The notes under the pieces are model-generated. The model was not told where the DNA came from and ran no database searches. It saw nothing but the letters and a program-made list of their open reading frames with translations. The position numbers and the translations under genes are program-made. Source: Prochlorococcus sp. AG-335-A05 (GTDB lineage: Bacteria; Cyanobacteriota; Cyanobacteriia; PCC-6307; Cyanobiaceae). Taken from it: a DNA stretch of 64,000 bases. Positions 57,677-59,506 of this stretch are shown one piece after another (position 1 is the first letter of the stretch; every line of letters starts with the position of its first letter). The DNA lies in assembly GCA_003282425.1 (NCBI GenBank), contig QBZF01000001.1:57450-121449 (forward strand), read 5' to 3'.

Positions 57677-57725
57677 GATTTACCCCTTGTCATAAGGTAC
57701 ATGTAAGAGTTAAATTTTTATATGT

Positions 57726-57797
<72 letters not shown>

Positions 57798-57822
57798 TTT
57801 AAAAGTCAAGAAAAGTCATACT

Positions 57823-57882: not shown

Positions 57883-57960
57883 GACGAACAATGACACTTT
57901 AATCTAATTGTGTTCGTCTATTATTCGTCTTTTTATTCATCTTTTGAAATCCTATTCGTC
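57883..57960. repeat. left cluster of T(A/G)TTCGTC boxes (inverted 57883-57890; direct 57911, 57922, 57953)
   Basis: GACGAACA, TGTTCGTC, TATTCGTC, TATTCGTC read directly; 57881-57890/57911-57920 form a 10-bp perfect inverted repeat. Confidence 0.75.
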
Positions 57961-57982: not shown

Positions 57983-58083
57983 ACATAAAAAAAAGACCAC
58001 TATTTCTAGAGGTCTTTTCTAATTTTACCGAATCAAGTGTTTCCTTGTTTCCACTGTTTCAGTAAAAACTTTCCTTCACACAC
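57983..58083 (-). ncRNA. Yfr2-family-like small RNA
   Basis: Minus strand: TTTTACTGAA (58067-58058) pairs with TTCGGTAAAA (58032-58023), inner stem CAGTG/CACTTG, loop GGAAACAAGGAAACA; ends in GACC...GGTC + T8 terminator; -10 CATAAT at 58095-58090 and -35-like TTCCAC 17 nt upstream. Confidence 0.65.
57984..58018 (-). terminator. intrinsic terminator (strong on minus strand)
   Basis: AAAAGACC (57991-57998)/GGTCTTTT (58011-58018) stem followed on minus strand by T8. Confidence 0.8.
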
Positions 58084-58138
58084 ATAAACATTATGCCTTA
58101 TATTTCTTTTTCGTGGAAGGGACAAAAGGAATGTTACT

Positions 58139-58160
58139 AAACTGTCACATGTGACAGTTT
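58139..58160. promoter_or_regulatory. 22-bp perfect palindrome AAACTGTCACATGTGACAGTTT
   Basis: Directly visible; between the two candidate sRNAs. Confidence 0.5.
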
Positions 58161-58183
58161 CCTTTTTCTGGATATATGGCAAT

Positions 58184-58217
58184 AAAAAAACATCCTAATT
58201 TAAAGAAAAGGATGTTT
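58184..58217 (-). terminator. intrinsic terminator
   Basis: Minus-strand AAACATCC-TTTTCTTTAAATTA-GGATGTTT TTTT. Confidence 0.75.
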
Positions 58218-58252
58218 ACTTATCAGAAATATGTGTGTGAGGAGTTTCTGAT
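58184..58252 (-). ncRNA. candidate small RNA with Yfr1-like ACTCCTCACAC loop motif
   Basis: Minus strand ATCAGAAA-CTCCTCACACACATA-TTTCTGAT hairpin then AAACATCC...GGATGTTT terminator with T-run; -10-like TATATA just upstream. Confidence 0.5.
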
Positions 58253-59398: not shown

Positions 59399-59418
59399 TA
59401 TTCGTCAAAATATTCGTC
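59399..59418. repeat. right cluster of TATTCGTC boxes (59399-59406, 59411-59418)
   Basis: Identical octamers to those at 57922 and 57953. Confidence 0.75.
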
Positions 59419-59484: not shown

Positions 59485-59506
59485 GCTCGAACGCCCGGGG
59501 AGTTTA
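59485..59506. repeat. att-like partial copy of tRNA-Asn 3' end
   Basis: GCTCGAACGCCCGGGGAGTTTA versus tRNA GTTCGAATCCCGCCCGGGGAGTTTA. Confidence 0.75.

Follow-up and report, generated by a model that had tools for sequence, protein, structure and literature searches.

In Prochlorococcus MED4, the genes yfr10, yfr12 and yfr18 adjoin yfr2, yfr4 and yfr5, respectively (Steglich 2008, PMC2518516). The same study suggested pairing between a 13-nt motif, aCUCCUcACACAC, and the Yfr2-type 5' end, GUGUGUAGGAG, and reported a 270-nt species representing a Yfr10+Yfr2 precursor (PMC2518516, Table 1 footnote e). The published start of MED4 yfr2, mapped by 5' RACE, is position 346828 (PMC1242208). Later work on MED4 demonstrated the reciprocal pull-down of Yfr2 and Yfr1/Yfr10, found that Yfr2 lifts the repression exerted by Yfr1 in an E. 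coli GFP assay, and showed that RNase E no longer cleaves Yfr2 once Yfr1 or Yfr10 is bound; it was also pointed out that, in high-light strains, yfr10 is located upstream of yfr2, and that this closeness may favour the interaction (Lambrecht 2019, PMC6778093).

The 64,000-nt stretch of Prochlorococcus sp. AG-335-A05 DNA analysed in the present study (hereafter, the window) contains a locus that is, with a probability of about 0.92, a copy of this known Prochlorococcus yfr10-yfr2 tandem, with Yfr2 as the anti-sRNA of Yfr10/Yfr1. By analogy, the binding, the competition, the effect on RNase E cleavage and the precursor described for MED4 would also hold in the window strain, for which the anatomy of the locus, the families of the two RNAs, the conservation of their contact and the lack of cognate-specific pairing are established here. 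The value of the analysis is mainly corrective: the strand is fixed, the RNAs are named and the figure of 11 complementary nucleotides given in the initial annotation proves to overstate a shorter, already published contact.

Identity and architecture of the sRNA genes

The initial annotation had placed a Yfr2-like RNA on the plus strand, which is at odds with the Rfam models: both sRNAs are encoded on the minus strand, in the order Yfr10 and then, downstream, Yfr2. The first RNA (58175–58252, minus strand, 5' end at 58252) matches the Yfr10 family (RF02362) over its full length, positions 1–78 of 78, with 92.8 bits against a gathering score of 43, and its 78 nt equal the length of MED4 Yfr10 mapped by 5' RACE and Northern analysis. 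The Yfr1/Yfr10 motif ACUCCUCACACAC lies in a hairpin loop (58233–58245, minus strand), where the predicted unpaired probability is at least 0.98, and the loop containing ACUCCUCACAC is followed by an intrinsic terminator, a hairpin with a T-run (58182–58223, minus strand), seen both as an inverted repeat (I25) and in the fold.

This RNA had been labelled Yfr1-like, but it is Yfr10, which constitutes a separate Rfam family (RF02362). Yfr1 (RF01116) has the motif ACUCCUCACAC in common with the window Yfr10; however, the motif of Yfr1 sits between two hairpins and its gene between guaB and trxA, whereas the motif of the window Yfr10 is in a hairpin loop. The loop RNA is therefore not identified as Yfr1, since the covariance model search with RF01116 yielded zero matches in the window or in the 54%-complete genome, and the locus does not lie between guaB and trxA; its neighbours are an ABC transporter gene and tRNA-Asn on one side and a response regulator gene on the other.

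The second RNA, Yfr2 (Cyano-1), occupies 57985–58083 on the minus strand, with a predicted 5' end at 58081 or 58083, and ends in a terminator T-run. The Cyano-1 model (RF01701) matches 58016–58085 (minus strand) over positions 1–69 of 69 with 58.6 bits, the gathering score being 41. The loop of the first hairpin contains the GGAAACA repeat, GGAAACAAGGAAACA; the 5' segment GUGUGAAGGAA is one letter off the unpaired consensus GUGUGNAGGAG. Written in coding-strand orientation, the sequences are ACUCCUCACACACAUA for the loop of Yfr10 and UAUGUGUGUGAAGGA for the 5' region of Yfr2.

The 11-nt complementarity and the start of Yfr2

The word TCACACACATA was found twice in the 64-kb window, at 58076–58086 (plus strand) and 58230–58240 (minus strand), and nowhere else in it, the chance expectation for this word being 0.02; the perfect 11-nt reverse complementarity reported between the two segments is therefore real. 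At the RNA level, the segments correspond to UAUGUGUGUGA, which covers the Yfr2 5' end and the letters immediately before it, and, within the loop of Yfr10, to UCACACACAUA. The earlier statement that both are unpaired is consistent with the predictions, which leave the Yfr10 loop without any pairing and the 5' end of Yfr2 approximately 82–98% unpaired. On the other hand, the whole segment TATGTGTGTGA (58076–58086, minus strand) had been assigned to the 5' end of Yfr2; between roughly one third and one half of it is probably absent from the primary Yfr2 transcript.

The position of the start follows from a comparison with MED4. One genome (G033) is taken to be that of MED4, because its Yfr10 match at 346661–346738 reproduces the published coordinates exactly; in it, the first G of GTGTGTAGGAG falls on position 346828. 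Homology with this G would place the start of the window Yfr2 at 58081, and spacing from the putative -10 box CATAAT (58090–58095, minus strand), recognised by alignment to the MED4 yfr2 promoter GGCATATT, would place it at 58083. With a start at 58081–58083, only 6–8 of the 11 nt would come from yfr2's own promoter, and the other 3–5 nt (58086–58084 or 58086–58082) would be located between the -10 box and +1; at least 58086–58084 are thus predicted to be upstream of the transcript. A start downstream of the segment's edge had been named in advance as an outcome that would remove the complementarity, and the predicted start would largely have this effect on the extension to 11 nt, while leaving the shorter conserved contact in place.

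Cofolding of the window RNAs, which had been recommended as a check, gives the anticipated duplex between the loop and the 5' end: the unpaired 5' segment of Yfr2, GUGUGUGAAGGA (58072–58083, minus strand), part of which would be transcribed from yfr2's own promoter, is predicted to pair with the Yfr10 loop. The binding energies, computed with a nearest-neighbour model that leaves out kinetics and proteins, are -11.4 kcal/mol for a start at 58081 and -15.7 kcal/mol for a start at 58083, where the MED4 pair has -12.9 kcal/mol. Combined with MED4 Yfr2, the window Yfr10 gives -15.2 kcal/mol, about the same as with its own partner.

A read-through yfr10-yfr2 precursor would be the sole setting in which all 11 nt are present, and its 268-nt sequence has a predicted minimum-energy fold (-76.9 kcal/mol) that pairs the full complementary stretch. 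The full match might act in cis, the Yfr10 loop pairing with the stretch before Yfr2 in the precursor of ~268 nt, and such pairing could affect processing into both RNAs or hold the pair silent until it is cut; the precursor documented in MED4, at 270 nt (PMC2518516), agrees with this reading. Nevertheless, the terminator at the end of Yfr10 is strong, so read-through is probably minor, and the upstream 3–5 nt show no conservation among the other pairs, which would leave the conserved core alone to carry any cis role. A function of the whole match in cis is thus considered improbable.

The preferred reading, in which Yfr2 antagonises Yfr10, can be outlined as follows. Yfr10 would offer the Yfr1-type motif ACUCCUCACACAC in its hairpin loop and bind target mRNAs with this motif, and the unpaired 5' end of Yfr2, bearing the complementary GUGUG-N-AGGA(G), would compete for the same loop. 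Yfr2 would thereby act as a sponge (anti-sRNA) for Yfr10/Yfr1, and the binding of Yfr10/Yfr1 would also protect Yfr2 from RNase E. The first 6–8 transcribed nucleotides of the 11-nt match would join the loop contact, and the other 3–5 nt, in the promoter spacer, would pair only within the read-through yfr10-yfr2 precursor. Sponge behaviour through loop-to-5'-end pairing, as previously proposed, is correct in kind, having been shown for MED4 Yfr10/Yfr1 and Yfr2, but not in detail.

Conservation of the contact in tandem pairs

The comparison covered at least 137 unique Prochlorococcus tandem pairs taken from loci matching either family, a sample chosen by family matches and not a census. In the 137 pairs among the matches listed, Yfr2 positions -6 to -1 are variable (commonest base 45–69%), conservation sets in sharply at +1, which equals the mapped MED4 start, and the commonest base accounts for 96–100% at positions +1 to +11, the bulged N excepted. 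Of these 137 listed pairs, 125 have a Yfr2 5' segment that conforms to GTGTGNAGGAG, and the motif ACUCCUCACACAC is identical in 109. It is the contact of GUGUG-N-AGGAG with CUCCUCACAC that is conserved, rather than the 11-nt run. The window Yfr2 is the only one among the 137 listed pairs (1/137) in which the contact ends in A in place of G (AGGAA); this substitution makes the conserved portion of the duplex weaker and speaks against the preferred reading.

The CACACA/TGTGTG stretches are simple repeats and the extension of the match past the core is within background, both of which would fit two low-complexity (TG/AC) stretches that match by coincidence and do not interact; but the core is nearly invariant in the 137 pairs among the matches listed, and experiments in MED4 have demonstrated that it interacts, making such a coincidence extremely unlikely for the match as a whole.

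Among the matches listed, cognate partners share a longest Watson-Crick run of 6 in the median and of 11 at most, the latter in the window pair, which is the sole cognate combination of 129 with a run of 11; runs of at least 11 (11 or 12) are present in 35 of the 3651 non-cognate combinations (1.0%). The run could be regarded as a selected, strain-specific lock, that is, a co-evolved private pairing insulating the islet pair from the chromosomal Yfr1/Yfr2 network. Besides the length of the run, this agrees with the Yfr10 loop, ACACACATA in the window versus ACACACTAA in most island-type relatives, and with the energies obtained if a start at 58086 is assumed, -18.6 kcal/mol for the window pair versus -9.5 kcal/mol with the genome's other Yfr2. 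However, the additional nucleotides precede the homologous start and belong to a stretch that is freely variable among relatives, the 35 mismatched combinations do equally well, and cognate pairing brings no gain in stability over shuffled partners, either overall, with 0, 2, 5 or 12 nt upstream of the start included, or within the island-type and core-type groups, where 514/1000 and 608/1000 shuffles, respectively, were at least as stable as the cognate pairing. A private lock of this kind therefore seems very unlikely.

Co-variation of the contact, proposed earlier as a further check, was looked for in the tandem pairs and is absent; cognate co-variation was rejected, as the duplex energies never beat those of shuffled partners. 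The mean Watson-Crick run at 0 nt upstream is 5.95 for cognate and 5.83 for shuffled partners, a value that 0/1000 shuffles reach, and this excess can be explained by sequence relatedness. On average, cognate and shuffled partners form duplexes of equal energy; the contact is therefore conserved without covarying, and past the core the match does not exceed background. The 11-nt match is for the most part a chance extension, some of which probably falls outside the RNA. A near-invariant, non-covarying contact fits a shared motif serving many partners, not private pairs.

The tRNA-Asn islet

The yfr10-yfr2 pair sits in an islet of ~1.7 kb between exact 15-nt repeats of the 3' end of tRNA-Asn(GTT), the integration site (57725–57798, plus strand; ARAGORN). 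The attL-like copy of CGCCCGGGGAGTTTA lies in the tRNA-Asn 3' end (57787–57801, plus strand) and the attR-like copy at 59492–59506 (plus strand), ~1.7 kb away. The flanks of the islet are 95–99.5% identical to MED4 on both sides, and MED4 has an islet of 1.49 kb with the same repeats and without the pair; another relative (G072), with flanks 93–99% identical, has a different islet of 1.03 kb at the same site. A related pair is present in an islet between two repeats in G012, and G053 has a related islet, in which the second repeat was not found; in the G001 and G180 loci, the repeats are just 0.45 and 0.26 kb apart. These arrangements suggest that copies of the pair have been swapped among close relatives at tRNA-Asn. 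The description of the pair as mobile thus gains support from the tRNA-Asn 3'-end repeats bounding the islet, whose movement we infer from them. Inside the islet there is no recombinase, and the PF00589 matches in the genome are only on other contigs (C18 and C2).

A cluster of GACGAA/TTCGTC repeats is located just inside the left islet end (57883–57960), and TATTCGTC from this cluster recurs inside the right end (59399–59418); the clusters at both ends are possibly recombinase arm sites. Among the matches listed, 11 of 90 island-type pairs and 0 core-type pairs have at least two GACGAA/TTCGTC copies downstream of Yfr2. As a finding, the pairing of the two sRNAs is ordinary; the tRNA-Asn islet merits a further look and is of modest interest.

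Spacer palindrome, viral sequences and other copies

The spacer between yfr10 and yfr2 contains a perfect palindrome, AACTGTCACATGTGACAGTT (58140–58159), a candidate regulator site. The sequence CACATGTG is present in the spacer of 42 of 91 island-type versus 0 of 46 core-type pairs among the matches listed. The palindrome is possibly the published GntR site CGRE1. With its flanks, it recurs in Synechococcus phage S-CAM9 (L265:3001-3035; 91–92% over 33–37 nt), where the copy is intergenic and close to high-light-inducible genes; to judge from the sequences, a regulator site shared by the island-type pairs and S-CAM9 is possible.

A phage-borne pair was also considered and rejected. The Yfr10 word is absent from the viral contigs searched, and the two viral matches of the Yfr2 word (L144, L145) are in a common protein-coding stretch without an Rfam match and are thus due to chance.

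Upstream of the genome's second Yfr2 (L002, G000:C2:40298-40365), there is merely a degenerate Yfr10-like sequence, ACTACTTACACTC, which suggests that the Yfr10 partner decayed at this locus and Yfr2 was retained. Some genomes (G052, G066 and G024) have 5–6 Yfr10 copies each, the first two in assemblies just 51–65% complete; in G024, two pairs lie <1 kb apart near tRNA-Asn (L102).

Comparison with known systems

Tycheposons are tRNA-targeted islets of Prochlorococcus, with insertion at the tRNA 3' end, a direct repeat and cargo differing between close relatives. The window islet has in common with them the insertion at the tRNA 3' end, the direct repeat at the far boundary and the cargo that varies between close relatives; it differs in its size, 1.7 kb versus the 4–200 kb described for tycheposons (PMC10872708), and in having no tyrosine recombinase of its own. 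It may tentatively be viewed as a small tRNA-Asn-targeted islet (~1.7 kb) without its own recombinase, carrying a regulatory sRNA and its antagonist as cargo, whose gain or loss would shift the dosage of the core Yfr1/Yfr10/Yfr2 system between close relatives, although this view is more doubtful than not.

MED4 Yfr10-Yfr2 has the same order, strand, families and loop-to-5'-end contact as the window pair and is also island-borne (genomic island 1), and the MED4 pairs Yfr12-Yfr4 and Yfr18-Yfr5, recovered here as L075 and L142, are two more tandem pairs of the same design (PMC2518516). The differences are in the details: the Yfr2 5' end is GUGUGAAGGAA in the window and GUGUGUAGGAG in MED4, the Yfr10 loop ends in CACATA in the window and in CACTAA in MED4, and the window pair is at tRNA-Asn, where MED4 has its different 1.49-kb islet; MED4 Yfr12 carries a mutated motif, CAUAUAC, and Yfr18-Yfr5 is of the core type, with a shorter spacer. 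The window pair is the already known Yfr10-Yfr2 system, the pairing of which was put forward as a prediction in 2008 and demonstrated experimentally in 2019.
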